A DNA stretch of 34,757 nucleotides, taken from positions 1 to 34,757 of the IMG/VR virus record IMGVR_UViG_3300005519_000319. One strand, written 5' to 3'. The stretch is from a virus. Shown here one piece after another: positions 1-12,281 of the stretch. A model generated the notes under the pieces. The model saw only the letters and a list, made by a program, of their open reading frames with translations. It had not been told where the DNA came from and did no database searches. How positions within the stretch are numbered: the stretch's first letter is position 1; every line of letters begins with the position of its first letter. The translations under genes were made by a program, and so were the position numbers.

Positions 1-1083
1 TTAGACACTTTTCTTGCGCGGGTTAGTCAAAACCCGTTCTCGTTTCGGGCTGGCTTGTATCACATTCGCCATGTCGATCAAGACCCCTGACACGTCTGCG
101 GACGAAGAATAATGCTCGGCCATCTCGATCGTCTCCTGGCCGAGGAAGTTCTTGATGTCTTCCAGCTTGTAGCCGAGCGTCCGCAACTCCGCCGCGACCG
201 TGTGGCGAAGGCCGTGCATGGTCAGGCCTTCGCCGGCAATGCCCTTGTCGACGCATTTGGCGAAGAATTTCCGAATCGAGGCGGTGAAGCCCATCTCCGT
301 CCAGGGCTGGCGGTCCGAGTTGAGGCAGAGCATCGTGACGTCGATCTCGGCGATCGGCCATGCGGTCAGCGCGTCATCTAGAATGCGCTTCAGCTCGCCC
401 AGTGCCGGAAGCTTCATCAGCTTGCCGTTCTTGCTTGCCCTGAACGAGATATAGCCGTCGCGGTAGGCCATCCGGGGCAAGCGGAGAATGTCGCCGCGGC
501 GAATGCCGAGGAAGCGGGCAAGCGCCAGGGGAACCTTGTAATGCAGCGGGGCGGCTGCCAGCACCTCGACACGCTCCGCCTTCGTCCAGGGCCGGTTCTC
601 CTTGCGGCGGTCGGCCGGGATCTTCGCCTTCTCCAGTTCGAGGCAGGGATTGGCGCTGACCAGCCCGTATTCCTTGCCGTGCCTGAAGGCCGATGACAGC
701 ATCGCCATCATGTGGTTGGTGAAGGCGCCGCGACGTGTTTTGACCGTCTTGTCGCGCAGCTTGGCCATGAACGCGTGATCGATCAGGGAGAGCGGAGTTC
801 CGGTGATCGGCTTCAGATGGTCCATGTATTTGAGGTAGTCGGCCCGGGTCCGGGGCGCGAGGTCGGTGAATTTCGGCGATTTCTTGTAGCTGGCCAGCAG
901 CCCGCCCAGCGTTCCGGCCTCGGGCTTCTGAGGCGCGTGCAACTTGTCGAGGCGATCGACCTCGGCGGCAAGCGCCTGGCCGGTCAATTTCGGGTCGAGA
1001 GGCGTGCCGCTTTTGCGGTGATAGGCGCGTTCGTTGCCCAGCCTGTCCTTGTAGCGTTTAACGCCCGTTATCTTCACGCGCAT
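1..1083 (-). CDS. int: Phage tyrosine recombinase / integrase
   Basis: This protein of 360 residues would catalyse site-specific integration and excision of the prophage between attP and attB. The C-terminal catalytic domain (about residues 165-345) shows the box I arginine in FLGIRRGDILRL (near R195), box II HGLRH (H290, R293, H294) and the nucleophile Y325 in EHYSSS. The N-terminal part (about 55-150) fits a SAM-like core-binding domain. The length is normal for phage integrases and the stop codon TAA is at the very edge of the window, so the gene is complete. Its ATG lies inside the 3' end of the excisionase-like gene (26-bp overlap), so the two are co-translated in a minus-strand operon. 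The att site is expected just outside position 1 and cannot be seen. Family assignment is firm. Confidence 0.96.
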   Translation of the reverse strand: MRVKITGVKRYKDRLGNERAYHRKSGTPLDPKLTGQALAAEVDRLDKLHAPQKPEAGTLGGLLASYKKSPKFTDLAPRTRADYLKYMDHLKPITGTPLSLIDHAFMAKLRDKTVKTRRGAFTNHMMAMLSSAFRHGKEYGLVSANPCLELEKAKIPADRRKENRPWTKAERVEVLAAAPLHYKVPLALARFLGIRRGDILRLPRMAYRDGYISFRASKNGKLMKLPALGELKRILDDALTAWPIAEIDVTMLCLNSDRQPWTEMGFTASIRKFFAKCVDKGIAGEGLTMHGLRHTVAAELRTLGYKLEDIKNFLGQETIEMAEHYSSSADVSGVLIDMANVIQASPKRERVLTNPRKKSV

Positions 1084-3692: not shown

Positions 3693-4700
3693 GTGACTAA
3701 AACCGCGCTGCATAAGCCTATGCACTGGGAAGCAAAAAACCTGATCCGCGCCATTGAAGCGGCTGGGGTTGCGCTGTGGTGTTGGAATGTCGATTCCGAT
3801 GCCTTGGCCATGGATGAAAATGCTTACGAGCTGTGGGATGTACCGCTCAGTAAGGATGTTAACTTCGAGGATCTCTCGGCCCATATCCATCCCGCCGACC
3901 GCGATCGTGTGCGGGCCGCGTTTAATGCGACACGAGCGATTGTCGGGCCTTTCGAGATCGACTTTCGCATCATGGTTGGCGAAGAGGTCAAATGGATTTC
4001 CGCCCGCGGCCAAGGTGACGATGCCGGGATCGTTGAGCGCATCATGTTCGGCATCTTCATCGACGTAACCGGCCGTAAACAGGCGGAAGAAGGTCGCGAG
4101 CTGCTCGCCGGGGAAATGAGCCACAGGGTTAAGAACCTGCTGGCCATAGCAGCCGGCCTCACCGCCATCACGTCCCGCTCGACAACGACAACAACCGACA
4201 TGGCCCGCGAACTGACGCAGCGCCTGACGGCCCTGGGGCGCGCGCATGACCTCGTGCGACCTGTGCCCGGTCAGACCGAGGCAGCCTCAGCCCTGCTTGG
4301 TGATTTGCTCACTGTGCTTCTTGCGCCATACGACGATCTGGGCGCCTTCAGCGGCCGCATCAGGGTATCGGTGCCAAGGATGAGCGTTGGCGAATCTTCG
4401 ACTACGGTCCTCGCGCTCATCATCCATGAATTGGCGACCAATTCTCTCAAATACGGCGCCCTGAGCGTCGACACAGGTTTGCTGGATGTTGCATGCTCCG
4501 CACATGATGAAGCCGTCACCATCGTTTGGACTGAACGTGGCGGGCCTCCCGTGATCGGCCCTACTGACGGGCCCGGTTACGGCAGCAGGCTGGTAGAGCG
4601 AAGCGTTAAGGGTCACTTGCGTGGCAGGATTGGCTACGACTGGGAACCCTACGGCCTCGTCGTGACATTGACGGTCGATCCGGATCGCTTGGCGCAATAG
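3693..4700 (+). CDS. PAS-domain HWE-family sensor histidine kinase
   Basis: The 335-residue soluble kinase starts at GTG 3693, chosen because GGGGGAGGG sits directly upstream (3681-3689). Residues about 15-130 form a PAS domain (WCWNVDSDAL ... IHPADRDRV ... GIFIDVTGRKQAE). The phospho-acceptor is H144 in EMSHRVKNLLA. The ATP-binding domain has the N-box LIIHELATNSLKYGALS (H245, N250) and the WTE triplet (W279, E281), which define the HWE family, followed by GYGSRLVER. There is no membrane segment, so it senses a cytoplasmic signal or light through PAS, though the cofactor is unclear. HWE kinases usually act on response regulators such as the PhyR stress pathway, but none lies nearby, making this an orphan kinase carried with the prophage. 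Confidence 0.93.
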   Translation: MTKTALHKPMHWEAKNLIRAIEAAGVALWCWNVDSDALAMDENAYELWDVPLSKDVNFEDLSAHIHPADRDRVRAAFNATRAIVGPFEIDFRIMVGEEVKWISARGQGDDAGIVERIMFGIFIDVTGRKQAEEGRELLAGEMSHRVKNLLAIAAGLTAITSRSTTTTTDMARELTQRLTALGRAHDLVRPVPGQTEAASALLGDLLTVLLAPYDDLGAFSGRIRVSVPRMSVGESSTTVLALIIHELATNSLKYGALSVDTGLLDVACSAHDEAVTIVWTERGGPPVIGPTDGPGYGSRLVERSVKGHLRGRIGYDWEPYGLVVTLTVDPDRLAQ

Positions 4701-4879
4701 CGGGATCCAGCGCGACCATTGCCGACTGCCTCGTGCCGGCGGCGTCGGGAGCTGCGAAACTCGGGGGCGCAGTGTGCATCGCCTTCGCGGCGGCTTCATC
4801 GAGGCTCGCTCGCATAGCTCAGCTAGGTCGGGCCACCGGCAAGATCAGCGAGGAGCATCTTACCCAAGGATCGCCCGCG

Positions 4880-5116
4880 ATGGACCGCTACTTTTTCGAT
4901 TTGTATAGCAGCGAAGGTGCTGTTCTCGACCAGGACGGCCAGCTGTTTGCGTCACGAGAGACGGCTCGAAGCGAGGCCGTCCGTATCCTCCGTGACGTTG
5001 CCCACGACGAGATGCCCGACCAGGACCTGGTCAGACTCACCGTTAAAGTTCGCGGCGATAAAGGTGCAGCGGTCTTTGAGGCCTCGCTAACCCTCAGTTC
5101 TGGTTGGCAGTCTTAG
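4880..5116 (+). CDS. DUF6894-type small protein
   Basis: This 78-residue protein begins at ATG 4880, and AAGGA lies about ten bases upstream. An upstream extension in frame is alanine-rich and looks non-coding. The pattern MDRYFFDLYSSEGAVLDQDG, then ARSEAVRILRDVAHDEMPD and a final VKVRGDKGAAVFEASLTL is that of the DUF6894 family, abundant in Rhizobiales and often present in many copies. The fold is expected to be small alpha-beta and the function is unknown. Such genes are scattered near two-component regulators and stress genes in rhizobia. Here it follows the HWE kinase by about 180 bases and may share its transcript. Confidence 0.85.
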   Translation: MDRYFFDLYSSEGAVLDQDGQLFASRETARSEAVRILRDVAHDEMPDQDLVRLTVKVRGDKGAAVFEASLTLSSGWQS

Positions 5117-6369: not shown

Positions 6370-7728
6370 CTAGTCGAGCGTCTCGCTGAACAGAAGCCGT
6401 CCTCCTGTCGGTCCGACCTCATAGTATTCGGCGCGGCAGGTTTGCCGCTCCAGCGTCAGCAGAGCGTACCCATGGTGCCACACCCCTTGGCTGGCCCCCA
6501 TCAAAGTTCCGTCTACCAAAGTTGGCACATCATCGAGACCATCTAACGGTTTGTAGACGTTATCATGAATTGAGACCGGGATAGCGCCGTGACCAATGCA
6601 TCGCCCGCGCTGGATACCGGAAAAGGGCTGGTAAATGCTGAGCGTGTGTTCGTGGCCCCAGAACCAAGCTGAGATCGCTCCCTTTCTGGCTAGAGCATTG
6701 AACGCTTTTAGTAAATGAGGGTTAGCCGAACTTCTCCTGCCTTCAGATAATAGTGGCCCGATCTGCGCGAATGCTGAATAAGGTTGATGATGCGACAAAA
6801 GCAATGTCTTGCCCTTGAACTCCCGGACCCTGTCACAATGCCAAGCCAACTCATCTTCCTCGATCCATGTGAGTGCATCTTCTACGCCGTATGGACTGTT
6901 GTCGTGCAACCCAGTGTCCATGCCTAATATCTGCCAAGCCTCGTCTTCGGATCTGAGGCAGAAGAAGCTTGCCCGCTGAGATACCGATACTGGATTGAGC
7001 TGCTCTATCATGTTGTAGAAGCCCACCCCGCCGCAGTACATGTCGTGATTTCCCGGGACTGCATATACCGGCTTGCTGTTGGCAGGTCGAAAAATCCTGT
7101 CAATTGGTTCCAAAAAGTTCGCTCGGCATTCATCTGAAGTGCCCGAGTAATAGATGTCACCCAGGTGTAATAGGCTGCTCGCATCATGTTTGGCGATATC
7201 GGTCAGAACATTTAATGCCGGCCTTGCGCCAGTCCCCCAATCCGCGATGAGAGCGAGTTTGGCGTTAGACGGAATAGGTATTACATGCGGACCGAGGTTC
7301 GCCGCTCGAATATAGGGAATGGCCGCCTTGTCGCCGCTCATGCCGAAGTAGCGATGATACTCCTTGAGCGTTGATATCCAGGCCGCGTCGCAGGTACTTC
7401 CAATGTACTCAGCCTCCACGGCTGCCAAGCCAACGTTATCGTCCATCGCCGCGGCCTTAACGTATCGCCACGCCAATTCGGCACAGAGTCCAGCCGTCTG
7501 CGCTTTGGACAATCCTCTAGCGCCATCAGGCAATACAGCTTCTTCTGATAGCCCTAATTCCCTACGGGCTATTTGGGCCGCAAGTCGTGGCAACGCTAAA
7601 CTAGCTGAGCGCTGCAATGTCCTGGTCTTGAAGGAGGGCGATCGATCGATTTTCTTCGCAACCTCGGACACCGTTGACTGAAATACAGAGAGTAGGGGGT
7701 CTCTGAAAGTCTCGAAATCATCGGTCAC
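6370..7728 (-). CDS. Calcineurin-like metallophosphoesterase with N-terminal helical domain
   Basis: The chosen start is GTG 7728, which overlaps the upstream stop (GTGA) and follows AAGGGGAGC; this gives 452 residues. Residues about 1-150 are helical and unrecognised. Residues about 157-365 form a metallophosphoesterase with all metal ligand motifs: IADWG (D163), LHLGDIYYSG (D191), VPGNHDMY (N227-H228), LLSHHQPYS (H313/H314) and FWGHEH (H359, H361). The D-x-G and GDxxY forms resemble purple-acid-phosphatase-like or ADP-ribose/nucleotide hydrolases more than exonucleases. As the last gene of a TIR-caspase operon it may hydrolyse a nucleotide signal (off switch) or attack nucleic acid or NAD-derived substrates (effector). 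There are no signal peptide or membrane segments, so it is cytoplasmic. The biochemical class is firm; the substrate is inference. Confidence 0.9.
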   Translation of the reverse strand: MTDDFETFRDPLLSVFQSTVSEVAKKIDRSPSFKTRTLQRSASLALPRLAAQIARRELGLSEEAVLPDGARGLSKAQTAGLCAELAWRYVKAAAMDDNVGLAAVEAEYIGSTCDAAWISTLKEYHRYFGMSGDKAAIPYIRAANLGPHVIPIPSNAKLALIADWGTGARPALNVLTDIAKHDASSLLHLGDIYYSGTSDECRANFLEPIDRIFRPANSKPVYAVPGNHDMYCGGVGFYNMIEQLNPVSVSQRASFFCLRSEDEAWQILGMDTGLHDNSPYGVEDALTWIEEDELAWHCDRVREFKGKTLLLSHHQPYSAFAQIGPLLSEGRRSSANPHLLKAFNALARKGAISAWFWGHEHTLSIYQPFSGIQRGRCIGHGAIPVSIHDNVYKPLDGLDDVPTLVDGTLMGASQGVWHHGYALLTLERQTCRAEYYEVGPTGGRLLFSETLD

Positions 7729-8000
7729 CCGCGCTCCCCTTTCGCGAAGAGCCAACTCTCTATCATGGGAAGGTACTTCATAACCTGCTCCCGATCACTG
7801 TCCTTCTCTTCCTCGGTCAGGGTCATATAGTCGGAGTTCATCTGCTTCTCCCAGCGCCGTACAAGCTCGGGGGCGAGCCGCAGGGAGCCGTCAGGCTGGT
7901 GTTCTGCGGTCGAGTGCAAATACTTCTGCCAGTGGGACCACCTATCGTGCTCGATCGAAGCCAATGCTTCTATAAGTTCTGCTCGATTTTGTGTCGGCAC
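7725..8000 (-). CDS. RyR-like small protein of the TIR-caspase operon
   Basis: This protein of 91 residues starts at GTG 8000, preceded by GGAG about eight bases upstream. Key pattern: LASIEHDRWSHWQKYLHS (about residues 13-30), then DGSLRLAPELVRRWEKQ and LTEEEKDSDREQVMKYLP (about 61-78). The E-H-x-R-W helix and the later EKxxDR helix are the signature of RyR-type repeat domains, which in prokaryotes are thought to bind nucleotide-like ligands; this assignment is by eye. The gene lies 16 bases after the caspase-like stop and overlaps the phosphoesterase start, so all three are translationally linked. It could be a signal receptor or an adaptor that tunes the protease or the phosphoesterase. 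Confidence 0.75.
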   Translation of the reverse strand: MPTQNRAELIEALASIEHDRWSHWQKYLHSTAEHQPDGSLRLAPELVRRWEKQMNSDYMTLTEEEKDSDREQVMKYLPMIESWLFAKGERG

Positions 8001-8016
8001 GAATGGAACTCCGCAA

Positions 8017-9012
8017 TTAAATTAGACCTTTGGCAACGAGACGGTAGTAATGCTGCCCGAGAATTGTCAACTCACAAGATTTACTGTACATTGCAGCATG
8101 CCACATGTGTTCGGCGCCCACTGGGCGGACGAGATTTACCCTCGCATAATTTTGCAGGACTTTAAATGTCCTATTATTTTCTCGATCTGGAGGAGGGATA
8201 TTGGATTCCTGTCCCGGGGCTCGCTCCGGTTCAAAGGAAGGATCAAGCGGGAACTTATAGTCGACAGTTGGGAAGATCGCCGAGATCTGTCGCAGATCCT
8301 CAAGCAACAAGGGCGCGCGGACCTTCCTCAGGGAAACGAATGACTTCACGTTCGTTTTGAATATTGGCCTCTGACCGCCCCATTCCCCAAGGGACTGATC
8401 GATGTGGGCATAGACGCTGCCGGGCGTGATGTCGCCGACGAGATTCGCGGCGGAACCTTCTAAGGCGTCGACGAAGAGGTTGGTAAATACACCGGGTCCT
8501 CCATTACCTCCCTCGTACGAGTACTGCTGTTCGGATGAAGCAGTTAGAAGGGTCATCCCCTCATCTATCTCAGCGGTGCCTGTCCCAGCCTGGTAGTTTC
8601 CAAGTATGCCGCCATGACAACTGTCGAGTACGATTATTTTGTTTTTAGCTTTAGAGTTGCGTGCGAAATTCAATACCTCAACCAGTGGAACGCCATCGTC
8701 ACCGTCTTGGCAATCACTGGGGCAAAGAAATCCGCCAGCTTCGTCGATATGGCCATGGCCCGCGAAATAGAGCAGCGCGATCGCGGGGTCGTCTTCGAAC
8801 AAAGCCTGAATTGAGGAACGGAGGTCGCGCCGCGACACAGGCTTGAACCTGTCTTCCCCAAGCAGCAAACGTGGGGTCTGAAAATTGATCTCATCGTTGG
8901 CGTGACGGCTTAGCACCCTGGCCACGGATCGCGCGTCGTTCACACAGCCTTTCAGAGGGGTAAATTTGTCATAATAATCAACGCCTATGATTAAGGCTTT
9001 CCGCCGTTCCAT
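8017..9012 (-). CDS. Caspase-family (C14) protease with C-terminal adaptor-like domain
   Basis: The product has 331 residues from ATG 9012; an upstream TTG at 9024 is less likely. The caspase core spans about residues 1-235: MERRKALIIGVDYY, KGCVNDA, then the catalytic histidine in LYFAGHGHID (H86) and cysteine in IIVLDSCHGG (C132). TLLTASSEQQYSYE matches the usual strand after the catalytic cysteine. A linker rich in proline and charge (about 250-275) leads to a compact C-terminal region of about 55 residues (FKVLQNYARVNLVRPV ... MYSKSCELTILGQHYYRL), which resembles small adaptor modules attached to bacterial caspases and other effectors. It would act as a suicide or regulatory protease once triggered. 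It sits between a TIR-like gene and the RyR-like gene on one strand. Confidence 0.92.
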   Translation of the reverse strand: MERRKALIIGVDYYDKFTPLKGCVNDARSVARVLSRHANDEINFQTPRLLLGEDRFKPVSRRDLRSSIQALFEDDPAIALLYFAGHGHIDEAGGFLCPSDCQDGDDGVPLVEVLNFARNSKAKNKIIVLDSCHGGILGNYQAGTGTAEIDEGMTLLTASSEQQYSYEGGNGGPGVFTNLFVDALEGSAANLVGDITPGSVYAHIDQSLGEWGGQRPIFKTNVKSFVSLRKVRAPLLLEDLRQISAIFPTVDYKFPLDPSFEPERAPGQESNIPPPDRENNRTFKVLQNYARVNLVRPVGAEHMWHAAMYSKSCELTILGQHYYRLVAKGLI

Positions 9013-9117
9013 CGTTATTCCCAAGCTGTGATCGTGTGATTTGTCACGAGTAGTATTTAATGCTGGTGCATTGAGGTTGTGTCAATTATCTGGAAGGCTG
9101 GTTTTGTTGGGGATAGT

Positions 9118-9666
9118 TTAGTCGTAGAGCTTTGGTGGGTCGCCACGCCTTCTGTAAACCGCTTGAACCCTGCTTCCCCATTGATCGAGCAGCCGACGAA
9201 AAGCCTCTCCTGTGATGTAGGCCTGCCCGGCAGAGAGATTGAATTCCGGCAGGTACAGGCCGGTAACGCCTTTCTCAAGCACACCCTCGGCCAACACTCC
9301 TTCCTCGCGTAAGATCAAGATAGGTAGACCCAGTTGGAAGGCCATTGCGGGCTCGATCTGGCAGTAGGGGCTTGTAAGCCATAAATCGCCGTTTGTCGTC
9401 TCCGACATTCCGGCGATGTCGGCTCCGGGATACTTGGTGGCCGTTGGCGCATGGGTCCGTCTAAAGGCAATCGACACGAGACCGCAGCAATGAGTCAGAA
9501 GTCGTCTTATGCCCACAAGTGGCGCTTCGAAATCGGAGCTACTACCAGGTCCAAGCGTTAATGGTTCAAAGCCTCGCGCTTGAAGCTCCGCTATGAACTG
9601 GTTGATGAACGCGAGTTGGGCCGAAAGGTGCGGATTTGGTCTGCTGATGAAAACAGGTACTTTCAT
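9118..9666 (-). CDS. TIR/deoxyribosyltransferase-superfamily protein
   Basis: This 182-residue single-domain protein begins MKVPVFISRPN, a typical first strand of the TIR/DRHyd fold. A helix (SAQLAFINQFIAELQARGFEPL), a second strand region and CCGLVSIAFRR follow. The key segment TSPYCQIEPAMAFQLGLPILILRE puts glutamate E105 where TIR and nucleoside 2-deoxyribosyltransferase enzymes keep their catalytic glutamate, after a serine and an aromatic residue. It should therefore act on NAD or a related nucleotide by base removal or exchange. No membrane segment or extra domain is visible. It is the first gene of the minus-strand run, 105 bases upstream of the caspase-like gene. I am confident about the superfamily and less so about the exact family. 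Confidence 0.75.
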   Translation of the reverse strand: MKVPVFISRPNPHLSAQLAFINQFIAELQARGFEPLTLGPGSSSDFEAPLVGIRRLLTHCCGLVSIAFRRTHAPTATKYPGADIAGMSETTNGDLWLTSPYCQIEPAMAFQLGLPILILREEGVLAEGVLEKGVTGLYLPEFNLSAGQAYITGEAFRRLLDQWGSRVQAVYRRRGDPPKLYD

Positions 9667-10159
9667 GAGGTTCTTTCACCGAGATTTTAGGGCTGCTGTT
9701 AGGTGTTCCATACGGCCGTACAAACAGTAAATAAGTTGATGCCTTATCTAAACTGCCTACAGGGGTCGACGTCTTGTCATCTTCCCGATAGGGTCAAGGA
9801 CGCGTCACAGGAGGGCTTCGGCGTCGCCGACGGCATTGACGCATTGTCTCGATCGTCCAGGGTTGCAGCTTGGCCATGGATCCTGCACGGTAATATTCGC
9901 TGTCGGCGTGCATTATTAAGCGATCTCGTAGCTGGTATCACCAAGCTTTCGCATGAAATTCTTGTAGCAGTTTGCGTGCTGGTATTGTTGCTGGCCCAAC
10001 CAGCGCACCCTCGCGCTTCTGGCCGATTATCGAAGATAAAACACAGCTGGAGACCGATGTTATCCGCTGTTGATACACAAAGACTTTGTGACTTCTTGCT
10101 ACTCCGACCGTATGCATTAATCATTCAACAGAGCGCCGTTTGATTCGTGGGGCAGAAGC
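9667..10159. other. Divergent gene-free region between two TIR modules
   Basis: I see no supportable gene in these 493 bases. Reading frames across it have no protein-like patterns. It separates the starts of two outward-facing transcripts, so both promoters should lie here. The base composition is lower in GC than the phage structural genes. The only clear structure is the palindrome at 10076-10090. Confidence 0.6.
10076..10090. promoter_or_regulatory. Palindrome CACAAAG-A-CTTTGTG
   Basis: A perfect seven-base inverted repeat around a single A, centred about 77 bases before the TIR start. It has the size and symmetry of a dimeric regulator site. No regulator gene lies beside it, so its reader is unknown. 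Confidence 0.45.
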
Positions 10160-10648
10160 ATGGCGATAAAAGTATTTGTTTCGTACAGAAACACCGACCT
10201 TTCGCTGGCGCAACAGGTGGCCCGCCGGGTCAGGGTGAACGGTCTGGACACGTATCTCGATGCCGTAGACGATGCCCTGGTCAAGGATGGTCCGGACTTG
10301 GCCGACCACTTGTTGGGGCGGATAAGCGAGTGCCAGCAGCTCATTGCAGTCGTTTCCAACCACACTAAGGATTCCTGGTGGGTGCCGTGGGAAATCGGCG
10401 TGGGATCTGAGAGGGGTTTCAGAATGGCCAGTTATTCCGAACAATACGTGTCGTTGCCCAGCTATCTGGAGAAATGGCCCGCTCTACACACCGAGCGCCA
10501 TATCGACCTCTACTGTCACTATTCGAAGGCAACGGACGCGGCCGTCGATCGCCATGTGCGCGACGCCGCCACCGAACTCGGCCGAATGCAAATCAGAAAA
10601 TCACAGGCGACTGACTTTCACAAAACGCTCAAATCAGTCCTGCGCTGA
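10160..10648 (+). CDS. TIR-domain protein
   Basis: This 162-residue protein starts at ATG 10160 with GGGGCAG upstream. It opens MAIKVFVSYRNTD, the classical TIR box 1, followed by VRVNGLDTYLD and QQLIAVVSNHTKDSWWVPWEIGVG. The last holds the S-x-W-x-x-x-E arrangement with the presumed catalytic glutamate E78. The remainder (ERGFRMASY ... LKSVLR) lacks any sensor domain, so this is a stand-alone TIR like those of short Thoeris and related systems. Such enzymes cleave NAD or convert it to cyclic ADP-ribose isomers that act as signals. It is followed after 32 bases by a second TIR-type gene. Confidence 0.9.
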   Translation: MAIKVFVSYRNTDLSLAQQVARRVRVNGLDTYLDAVDDALVKDGPDLADHLLGRISECQQLIAVVSNHTKDSWWVPWEIGVGSERGFRMASYSEQYVSLPSYLEKWPALHTERHIDLYCHYSKATDAAVDRHVRDAATELGRMQIRKSQATDFHKTLKSVLR

Positions 10649-10680
10649 CCACCCATATTAGCATCAGACGGGAGATAAGT

Positions 10681-11070
10681 ATGGCGAAGACCAAGGTGTT
10701 CGTGAGTTTCGACTACGATCACGATGAGATACTCAAGACGTTCCTCATCGGGCAGGCAAAGCTCGATGACAGTCCATTCGATCTTGCCGACTGGTCGATC
10801 AAGGAACATATCGACGATAATTGGAAGAAGCACGCGCGCACCCGAATCCGCTCTGTCGATGTGGTTTGTATAGTTTGCGGTAAGCACACGGATACAGCGA
10901 CCGGCGTTAGTGCCGAGCTCAAGATCGCTCAGGAGGAGGGGGTGCCGTATTTCTTACTTGCCGGCTACTCCCATGGTGGCAATGTCAAACCGAAGGCTGC
11001 ATTAGCCACCGACAAACTTTACAACTGGACATGGCCGAACCTCAAGACCCTGATTGGAGGGGGGCGGTGA
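10681..11070 (+). CDS. ThsB/DUF1863 (MTH538-type) TIR-like protein
   Basis: This 129-residue protein starts at ATG 10681 with GGGAGA upstream. The pattern is characteristic: KTKVFVSFDYDHDEILKTF, DSPFDLADWSIKE, WKKHARTRIRSVDVVCIVCG, HTDTATGVSAELKIAQEEG and YNWTWPNLKTLIGG. This is the MTH538/DUF1863 TIR-like family, to which the signal-making ThsB proteins of Thoeris belong. The glutamate E79 in GVSAELKIAQ fills the catalytic position. No ThsA-type SIR2-SLOG or membrane effector lies next to it; the nearest plausible effectors are the caspase-like protease and the phosphoesterase on the opposite strand. The 155 bases after the gene hold no other gene. Confidence 0.92.
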   Translation: MAKTKVFVSFDYDHDEILKTFLIGQAKLDDSPFDLADWSIKEHIDDNWKKHARTRIRSVDVVCIVCGKHTDTATGVSAELKIAQEEGVPYFLLAGYSHGGNVKPKAALATDKLYNWTWPNLKTLIGGGR

Positions 11071-11225: not shown

Positions 11226-11927
11226 CTACCGCGCGTTATACTTTCCCACCACCCGATGGCACACCGGCCAATCAATCCGGCTTTCGCTGAACGTGTGGGC
11301 AGGGCGGTACTGCTCCAGCGTCCAGTCGCGGTCGTTGATGCCGACCAGGCGCTTGATGATGGCTTCCTCGTCGCCCTGCTCTTTTGGCGGCGTGTGGAAG
11401 AACACGGCGTCGGTGTCGCGCGCCGGCTGCAGATGCGGGTTCACCAGGGCGGTGTCGCCCGGCCAATAGGCGGGGATCATAGATTCGCCGCGCACCAATA
11501 TGCCGTAGCCGCCCCTGACATTCTGCAGCACGGCCGGGCGCTTCACCCAGTCGATGGCTTCGAAGGTGACGATCATATGGCCTTCGCCGCCCATGGCGGC
11601 GGCGTAGATCGGAAGGTCGCGATTGCCGACGAGATCCTTGCCTGGAATGATCGGCGTCCTCGGCTGGCGCGGCTTCTCGACCTTTGGCGTGGGCGCCGGC
11701 GGGGCGCCCTGGCTGTTGAGCAGCCATTCCATGTCGGTGTTGAGCAGCGCCGCCAGCTCGGGCAGGCGGGTTAGCGCTGGCCGCGTCGTGTCCGATTCCC
11801 ATTGCGTGACCGAGACCCGCTTGATGCCGAAGCGGGCGGCGACGTCGTCCTGTGTCAGGCCAGCCGCCTCGCGCGCGCTGCGCAGCCTTTGGCCAAGTGT
11901 CGCGGTGTCCGGCGCCATTTTTGTCAT
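11226..11927 (-). CDS. CI-type prophage repressor with S24 peptidase domain
   Basis: The chosen start is ATG 11927, giving 233 residues; a longer frame upstream runs through the operator and is not real. Residues about 10-65 are a XRE helix-turn-helix (LGQRLRSAREAAGLTQDDVA, RVSVTQWESD). The C-terminal part is a LexA/CI S24 fold with the serine of ILVRGESMIPAYWPGD and the lysine of EAIIKRLVG as the catalytic dyad. The likely self-cleavage region is around IYAAAMGGEG. It should hold the phage dormant by binding the divergent operator and should be lost by RecA-stimulated self-cleavage during DNA damage. The divergent Cro-like gene and the operator fit this role. Confidence 0.95.
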   Translation of the reverse strand: MTKMAPDTATLGQRLRSAREAAGLTQDDVAARFGIKRVSVTQWESDTTRPALTRLPELAALLNTDMEWLLNSQGAPPAPTPKVEKPRQPRTPIIPGKDLVGNRDLPIYAAAMGGEGHMIVTFEAIDWVKRPAVLQNVRGGYGILVRGESMIPAYWPGDTALVNPHLQPARDTDAVFFHTPPKEQGDEEAIIKRLVGINDRDWTLEQYRPAHTFSESRIDWPVCHRVVGKYNAR

Positions 11928-12008
11928 GCTCGGGTTGTAACCATTACTTACATAATTGCACCTACGTAGGTGATTGACAAGTAGGTAGGCAACACCTACC
12001 GTCAGGCC
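11928..12008. promoter_or_regulatory. Lysis/lysogeny operator with divergent promoters
   Basis: The region holds a perfect 12-base palindrome ACCTACGTAGGT (11960-11971). A second dyad is built from the same half-sites, GTAGGT (11981-11986) and ACCTAC (11994-11999). A plus-strand -35 TTGACA lies at 11974-11979 with a poor -10 about 17 bases on. A minus-strand -35 TTGTCA (11980-11975) has AATTAT (11957-11952) exactly 17 bases downstream. The two -35 boxes overlap. This is the expected layout of a CI/Cro switch, with the half-site GTAGGT as the likely recognition word. Confidence 0.75.
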
Positions 12009-12281
12009 ATGATTCAGATCGTTGAACGTGGCGCCGCCCGAGCGGGCGGACTGGCGAAGCTCGCCTTCGCCTTGGGCATCCGGCACCAGGCCTTCTATTC
12101 GTGGAAGCGGGTGCCGGCGGAGCGGGTGCTGGCCTTCGAGAGGCTAACCGGCATCTCCCGGCATGAGCAGCGACCCGACCTTTTCGGCCCACCTCCCGAT
12201 GTCGCCGCAGCCGACATCGGCGCCGGCCCCGCTGCCTCCCAAGCCGGGGCCGGCCATCCATCAACCGGAGCAACAAAATGA
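12009..12281 (+). CDS. Cro-like YdaS-type DNA-binding protein
   Basis: This 90-residue protein starts at ATG 12009, the first plus-strand gene after the operator. GGLAKLAFALGIRHQAFYSWKRVPAERVLAFERLTGISRHEQRPDLFG is the YdaS/Cro antitoxin-like helix-turn-helix pattern, in which the recognition helix reads RHQAFYSWK. The C-terminal 35 residues are disordered (proline and alanine rich). It should bind the same operators as CI and promote the lytic choice. It overlaps the next gene by four bases (ATGA), so the early regulators are translated together. Confidence 0.85.
   Translation: MIQIVERGAARAGGLAKLAFALGIRHQAFYSWKRVPAERVLAFERLTGISRHEQRPDLFGPPPDVAAADIGAGPAASQAGAGHPSTGATK

Follow-up and report, generated by a model that had tools for sequence, protein, structure and literature searches.

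A prophage island of TIR, caspase-like and RyR-like genes as a putative reassorted variant of type IV Thoeris

The virus record IMGVR_UViG_3300005519_000319 (34,757 nt; the whole of this record is referred to below as the window) holds an island of six genes, A to F, in which genes for a calcineurin-like phosphoesterase, a ryanodine receptor (RyR)-like protein, a caspase-like protease and a protein of predicted Rossmann-like fold face two TIR genes across a divergent intergenic region. An earlier reading of the sequence (the original prediction) had described these genes as a candidate immune island inside a prophage. Its layout is borne out by direct reading and family searches: all six open reading frames (ORFs) lie where it had placed them and look intact, the 493-bp divergent gap is present, and defence-profile and Pfam searches back five of the six names (calcineurin-like phosphoesterase, RyR domain, this one weakly, caspase, TIR and ThsB-type TIR). 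The features are as follows.

1..1083, minus strand: tyrosine integrase of the prophage (gene annotation of the window).
6370..7728, minus strand: A, calcineurin-like metallophosphoesterase, 452 amino acids (Pfam Metallophos, 2.4e-14).
7725..8000, minus strand: B, RyR-like protein, 91 amino acids, with His18, Trp21 and Asp69 (PF02026, E 5.3e-4).
8017..9012, minus strand: C, caspase-like protease, 331 amino acids, with His86 and Cys132 (Peptidase_C14, 2.7e-18).
9118..9666, minus strand: D, 182-residue protein of Rossmann-like fold with conserved Glu105 (without Pfam match; fold model).
9667..10159, between both gene runs: divergent intergenic region, 493 bases (direct reading).
10160..10648, plus strand: E, second TIR protein, 162 amino acids (TIR_2, 6.1e-10).
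10681..11070, plus strand: F, ThsB-type TIR protein, 129 amino acids, with Glu79 (ThsB_TIR, 3.7e-6).
11226..12086, minus strand: prophage repressor, helix-turn-helix plus S24 peptidase (gene annotation of the window).

The interval between integrase and repressor is a usual site of prophage cargo, and the island lies there; beyond the repressor the annotation of the window lists primase, terminase, head protease, tail sheath and tape measure genes. The prophage setting holds, as the virus record carries integrase, repressor and structural genes. The caspase gene C starts at an ATG, an alternative TTG 12 bases further out being possible, and the RyR gene B begins 16 bases past the stop of C. 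Gene A starts at a GTG that overlaps the stop of B as GTGA; the alternative start that the ORF list gives, a TTG at 7755, is less probable, because the annotated start in the related cassette of Agrobacterium tumefaciens pAtCG920 (L003) overlaps likewise. Promoter-like or terminator signals in the divergent region (9667-10159) are no more frequent than in shuffled sequences.

The original prediction knew no match for this combination of genes, a view that the plasmid records do not support. Plasmids of Bradyrhizobium BTAi1, Rhodopseudomonas BAL398 and Methylobacterium currus carry five of the six gene types as a cassette on a single strand, in the order E-type TIR, ThsB-type TIR, caspase, RyR and phosphoesterase. 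The Agrobacterium CG920 plasmid (L003) carries the same cassette without the E-type TIR, its RyR ORF being unannotated, and P. aeruginosa and Curtobacterium plasmids carry TIR, caspase and RyR without the phosphoesterase. On R. rhizogenes pC6.5d (L007), the TIR genes are divergent from a RyR-caspase-phosphoesterase run, a split resembling that of the window. Caspase C matched 110 plasmid records (43 over at least 80% of its length) and phosphoesterase A matched 10, and the 4 records matching A over at least 80% of its length are those of the four closest caspases. Because the same genes recur together elsewhere, their grouping is beyond chance.

A genome survey with an alignment of eight caspases used the best 80 of 506 relatives, and 17 viral loci were also fetched. 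Within 1500 bases of the 80 best genome caspase loci lie a ThsB-type TIR (69 loci), a RyR (51), an E-type TIR (13), a phosphoesterase (8) and a D relative (2). All 51 RyR genes, which come from several phyla, are directly downstream of the caspase on the same strand, with gaps of -4 to +40 bases (median 1). Among the 29 genome caspase loci without RyR, 20 have a ThsB-type TIR and one (L084) keeps only 262 downstream bases; TIR-caspase pairs without a RyR match are also found on Providencia and E. coli plasmids. Because such pairs without a found RyR exist, the RyR looks like a modifier rather than a receptor. Scans of viral contigs with single sequences gave 0 loci for the caspase and 1 for the phosphoesterase, and scans with alignments gave 17 for the caspase, 36 for the RyR and 2 for D. 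A separate observation concerns three Nitrobacteraceae loci (L012, L014 and L028, approximately 2.2-3.8 kb), in which a second TIR-caspase pair, some 1.3-1.5 kb upstream, runs on the strand opposite to the first cassette; the second caspase frame of L012 is in two pieces.

The same association is seen from the side of the RyR. All 21 plasmid records found by tblastn with the window RyR also hold a caspase or a caspase remnant, and 19 of these RyRs are within about 225 bases of the caspase match, including that of CP125649, which matches from residue 35 and is unannotated. As for the remaining two, the RyR of L109 shares a gene run with the caspase, 3 kb downstream of it, and that of L114 abuts a caspase remnant near an insertion sequence element. 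Among other genomes sampled evenly from an order and a class, one of 396 and one of 393, respectively, carry a RyR, in both cases next to TIR-caspase (L119 and L120); these counts are minimal, as 12-13 candidates were scored per genome. Mapped on the caspase tree, RyR presence requires at least 5 changes and falls mostly in one large clade, so that many independent gains of the RyR, which had been considered, are not borne out. The Sphingomonas plasmid run at L109:6001-10619 reads ThsB-type TIR, caspase, S8 protease, CHAT-type protein, TIR and RyR.

Profiles and conserved residues speak for a place of B in the RyR family. Among 54 aligned relatives of B, 32 match PF02026 at E <= 0.01, and a profile of 49 RyRs matches ryanodine receptor chains in the PDB, the best being 6uhi (E 5.9e-6, whole chain); ryanodine receptors or putative ones make up 15 of the 16 chains at E <= 10, with scores that are sums over short pieces, each weak alone. 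The model of B has four helices (predicted local distance difference test, pLDDT, 91.7). Phages encode RyR-domain anti-Thoeris proteins, RyDEP and its homologues, which according to a 2026 preprint (PMC13232231) hydrolyse or sequester a cyclic ADP-ribose (cADPR), 2'/3'cADPR. The same source names a catalytic His and Asp, an adenine-stacking Trp and a phosphate-coordinating His100 in RyDEP, and reports that 6 of 8 tested phage homologues bound 2'/3'cADPR and did not cleave it and that two characterised homologues acted as sponges (PMC13232231). When RyDEP (L117) is aligned with 61 cassette RyRs, its H75, W78 and D117 correspond to H18, W21 and D69 in 61/61, and residues matching H75, D117 and W78 are kept in 54/54 members of a set that includes 14 viral rows. 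The earlier suggestion that the RyR could bind the signal is plausible in view of RyDEP, for which the preprint gives degradation or sequestration, and not activation, as the outcome (PMC13232231). To judge from this conservation and from its place in the cassettes, the cassette RyR probably serves as an integral regulator of the immune messenger.

Type IV Thoeris, reportedly treated by Rousset 2025, is said to consist of a TIR protein plus a caspase-like protease, with N7-cADPR as messenger. PMC12847820 likewise recounts that type IV caspases are activated by N7-cADPR. The corresponding core is present in the window, in keeping with the original prediction, as evidenced by profile matches, catalytic residues and recurring neighbours. 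F scores 27.7 bits on ThsB_TIR, above the curated 21.2, and its Glu79 is invariant in an 8-row alignment, so that a ThsB-type TIR with the catalytic Glu, as expected of type IV Thoeris, is found. F is 62-71% identical to five plasmid TIRs, and the four of these that were inspected adjoin another caspase gene; the caspase frame beside the F relative in L110 is split in two pieces. We take F as the presumed maker of a cADPR-type signal and E as a recurrent companion TIR, perhaps a second sensor. In C, which is 80% identical to the L003 caspase, H86, C132 and C-terminal residues are invariant in 8 rows, and hence both the His/Cys pair and the C-terminal region common to TIR-linked caspases are found; NCBIfam caspase_w_EACC1 matches C only below its cut-off. 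D, of a fold predicted to be TIR-related, is the sole such gene on the caspase strand. A remnant of the usual ThsB-type TIR was not found beside C in a tblastn search of the first 12.2 kb with the L003 and L004 TIRs, in which only F came below E 0.2.

Searches with D found nothing in Pfam up to E 10 or in PADLOC and NCBIfam up to E 1. Its Rossmann-like model (pLDDT 74.0, built from 5 sequences) gives its best fold matches to DNPH1 (Z 13.3), the MilB CMP N-glycosidase (12.9) and TIR-STING (12.2), with the flavodoxin-like 6h0d close at 11.5, and Glu105 is invariant in both alignments made. The earlier label "TIR-like" applies at the superfamily level, that of the Rossmann-like fold, and fails at the family level, where no TIR profile matches and the best fold matches are nucleotide N-glycosidases. 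This fold suggests that D might be an accessory enzyme acting on NAD- or nucleotide-like substrates. Its relatives are rare (2 of 297 genomes), one being a gene of Mesorhizobium caraganae that is 71% identical to D and lies about 190 bases after a TIR-caspase pair (L085). The surroundings of seven D relatives outside the window were inspected; a TIR gene is near four (L059, L085, L115 and L161), including the Halorubrum one (L115), which is placed after a ThsB-type TIR gene, and none was found near three (L116, L162 and L167). On a viral contig (L161:1-1337), a cut D relative (44% identical), a ThsB-type TIR gene and a gene for an octameric membrane protein (8xMP) stand in a row, which may represent a Thoeris type whose effector is a membrane protein.

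In the phosphoesterase A, about 155 residues precede the catalytic domain, and the putative metal-ligand motifs are invariant in 12 rows. That A is a member of the system, as originally proposed, agrees with its recurrence in relatives, although as an optional part: it accompanies 14 of the 91 caspase loci of the tree set, 13 of them in one clade, and L007 outside that set. It has no match in the phage collection, and a distant relative in L010 adjoins CHAT genes. The GTGA overlap of start and stop hints that A acts in the same branch as B. Like A, ADPRibase-Mn is a metallo-dependent phosphatase, which hydrolyses ADP-ribose and, weakly, cADPR (PMC4334965); the profile of A, however, finds purple (tartrate-resistant) acid phosphatases instead, these being all 6 sequences at E <= 0.001 among solved structures. 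Hydrolysis of ADP-ribose by analogy with ADPRibase-Mn was accordingly demoted to one option for A.

The history of the island was addressed with paired trees of 91 caspases with a TIR near, which leave out caspases without a TIR, and L007. The window caspase is sister to that of L003 (support 100) inside a group of 13 rows (99), all with RyR and phosphoesterase; outside these rows the phosphoesterase is found only in L100 within the tree. TIR F clusters with L109 (82) within a set of nine rows that includes L110, L111 and L100 (90). Constraining the window TIR to L003 was rejected (approximately unbiased (AU) test, p 0.0006), as was constraining the window caspase to L109, L110, L111 and L100 (AU p 0.0076); the constraint groups were chosen after viewing the trees, and the TIR tree has 123 columns. 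To judge from these trees, the window is a hybrid of a caspase-RyR-phosphoesterase run of one lineage with a ThsB-type TIR of another, plus the rare Rossmann-type D. It appears as a reassorted version because its relatives have a ThsB-type TIR directly before the caspase and F belongs to another TIR lineage. The two strands of the island do come apart in relatives, in which a ThsB-type TIR directly precedes the caspase, and a similar split was seen once (L007).

Taken together, these results suggest, with a probability of about 0.55, that this prophage island represents a type IV Thoeris variant of reassorted origin, in which B hydrolyses or sequesters the messenger; we infer the functions of all its genes. 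The TIR enzyme that turns NAD+ into a cADPR isomer upon infection by another phage would most likely be F, perhaps joined by E as a second sensor. By homology, this isomer would switch on the caspase C, which would degrade cell proteins and end the infection. On the RyDEP precedent, B may bind the messenger and hydrolyse or sequester it, such that stray signal spares the cell and the response is tuned or reset. A might act in the branch of B, on the ADP-ribose product or on the messenger, or as a second effector, and D could be an accessory enzyme of N-glycosidase-like fold. Reassortment would have joined the caspase-RyR-phosphoesterase run of one lineage with the TIR pair of another, and with D.

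Several results weigh against this interpretation. In type IV Thoeris, TIR and effector are expected in the same operon, and here they are on opposite strands across the 493-base gap; an F-type TIR (49% identical) stands without a caspase in L113, where it adjoins a PIN-domain gene. B itself scores 20.6 bits on PF02026, below the curated 27.4 (E 5.3e-4), and RyR is absent among the matches listed in structure searches with the B model (Foldseek best E 2.9). A second structure search, with VIA-align, gave unrelated helical proteins (best Z 4.2). As small helical models are hard to match by structure, the name RyR is based on profiles and residues. The phosphate-coordinating H100 of RyDEP is replaced in cassette RyRs, 44 of 61 having R or K there (K52 in the window), and animal RyR domains likewise keep H75, W78 and D117 (PMC13232231); because animal RyRs keep the same residues, their conservation signals ligand binding more than catalysis. 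By analogy, the cassette RyR would be as likely a sponge as a hydrolase, because other bound homologues did not cleave the messenger. By term counts, PMC13232231 mentions neither N7-cADPR nor "type IV", and one TIR-caspase title stands among its references. The survey seeds all had a RyR near, so that 51/80 is not an unbiased frequency, and RyR presence follows the caspase score (37 of the 40 highest, 14 of the 40 others). All nine of the 17 viral caspase loci that pass a threshold of 400 bits have a TIR and none has a RyR. In L007 the RyR precedes the caspase, and a 47%-identical relative of A in L166 (5940-8262) adjoins a gene for a papain-type cysteine protease, no caspase having been found there.

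Three other explanations deserve consideration. The direct coupling of caspase and RyR would also fit a RyR that serves the caspase as a signal-binding adaptor or as an inhibitor subunit, with the phosphoesterase as a pro-enzyme cut by the caspase in a canu-like cascade of protease and then hydrolase. The roughly 155 residues before the catalytic domain of A are consistent with such a pro-enzyme, as are A relatives beside protease-type genes (CHAT in L010, papain-type in L166, caspase in L100), the precedent of a caspase-activated pro-nuclease (PMC12799240) and the use of calcineurin-like phosphoesterases as variable effectors (PMC7159879). However, the phage RyR-domain proteins act on the signal unaided (PMC13232231), and the nearest solved relatives of A are purple acid phosphatases, which say little about a role as nuclease; we regard this explanation as unlikely. 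The opposite strands, the different lineages of TIR and caspase, the position of D at the usual place of the TIR upstream of the caspase and the occurrence of an F-type TIR without caspase in L113 would all agree with two unrelated cargo units, the D-C-B-A run and the E-F pair, lying side by side, with D as the true signal maker for the caspase. Yet close relatives of F are directly before caspases in L109, L111 and L112, L100 joins an F-type TIR with caspase and phosphoesterase, D follows an intact TIR-caspase pair in L085 and hence is an addition there, and L007 shows a similar split with TIR genes divergent from RyR-caspase-phosphoesterase, which together make two unrelated units quite improbable.

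It is also conceivable that the RyR is an anti-defence gene of the mobile element, akin to RyDEP, which shields the prophage or plasmid from host Thoeris and merely rides with the caspase gene. Small related RyRs at 36 viral loci, with no TIR or caspase match in the flanks examined, and the finding of cassettes on plasmids point in this direction. A hitch-hiker, however, is unlikely to keep the position directly behind the caspase on the same strand that the RyR has at 51 of 51 genome loci with RyR across several phyla, and such a RyR would blunt its own cassette, so that we consider this very doubtful. A RyR that regulates the messenger of its own type IV Thoeris-like system is the reading that we prefer.

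Comparison with known systems places the island near type IV Thoeris, with which it shares a ThsB-type TIR with its Glu, a caspase-like protease with His/Cys and the neighbourhood of their genes. It differs in its divergent TIR and caspase genes and in the additional RyR, phosphoesterase, second TIR and D. The cassette RyR aligns with RyDEP in the catalytic His and Asp and the adenine-stacking Trp, whereas it stands inside a TIR-caspase cassette, mostly has Arg or Lys for the phosphate-binding His, and has a different middle segment. The related cassette of pAtCG920 has caspase, phosphoesterase and RyR in the same order (80%, 70% and 69% identical, respectively), but the gene directly before its caspase is a ThsB-type TIR of another lineage, and it has neither an E-type TIR nor D. 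The canu system, as described in PMC12799240, also has a caspase followed by a metal-dependent hydrolase; its nuclease is a pro-nuclease of metallo-beta-lactamase fold, in contrast to the calcineurin-like phosphoesterase and TIR genes of the window. In the literature searched, in which PMC13232231 was the sole relevant paper among those listed, no description was found of a RyR inside TIR-caspase or Thoeris systems, a link that may be in print in Rousset 2025 or in Chen 2026; the latter, on a phage sponge against TIR-caspase, is known as a citation in PMC13232231. Nor did that search find a description of Thoeris with metallophosphoesterase, caspase and TIR.

Extended beyond the window, the comparison tentatively suggests, with the odds somewhat against it, that many TIR-caspase systems encode their own RyR-domain messenger regulator, an immune off-switch that would be the host-side counterpart, and possibly the source, of the phage RyDEP family. 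If true, a widely spread bacterial immune system would contain its own regulator, one belonging to the domain family with which phages counter Thoeris, and the link between cADPR and the ryanodine receptor in animals would gain a bacterial immune relative, with messenger maker and RyR domain as genetic neighbours. Because small genes side by side encode the presumed messenger maker, its protease target and the RyR-like protein, they would also offer a clean test of whether RyR domains recognise cADPR isomers, an old question of calcium signalling.

In viruses, the RyR occurs in other surroundings. The phage collection gave 11 RyR records; MT835687 also carries a caspase, and the remaining 10 are missing from the caspase matches. 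At the 36 viral RyR loci, some of them near-copies, the flanks examined, which are short in some cases, contained no match to caspase, TIR, phosphoesterase or D. Because these neighbourhoods differ from those in plasmids and genomes, we distinguish two settings of the RyR, one inside TIR-caspase cassettes and, in viruses, one outside them. In a short RyR tree (96 columns, leaving out L001, L118, L121 and L157 as duplicates or a cut row), phage sequences form clusters separate from those of the cassettes; the tree requires at least 4 changes, of which the starred branches force only 1. Several members of the family merit mention. One member of the RyR alignment matches the Pfam family of the T7 gp5.9 RecBCD inhibitor at 1.1e-11, and a viral RyR-like protein (L146:5989-6783) by eye apparently continues into a methyltransferase-like domain. 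The gp044 of Microcystis phage Ma-LMM01 (L160:2498-2740), annotated as hypothetical, is RyR-like and a candidate anti-Thoeris gene.

As for the prophage itself, no close known phage was found in a search that gave two records of 195 bases each in the methyltransferase gene. The stretch between integrase and repressor also holds, at window positions 3693-5116, a PAS/HWE histidine kinase and a DUF6894 protein, which are unusual for a phage.

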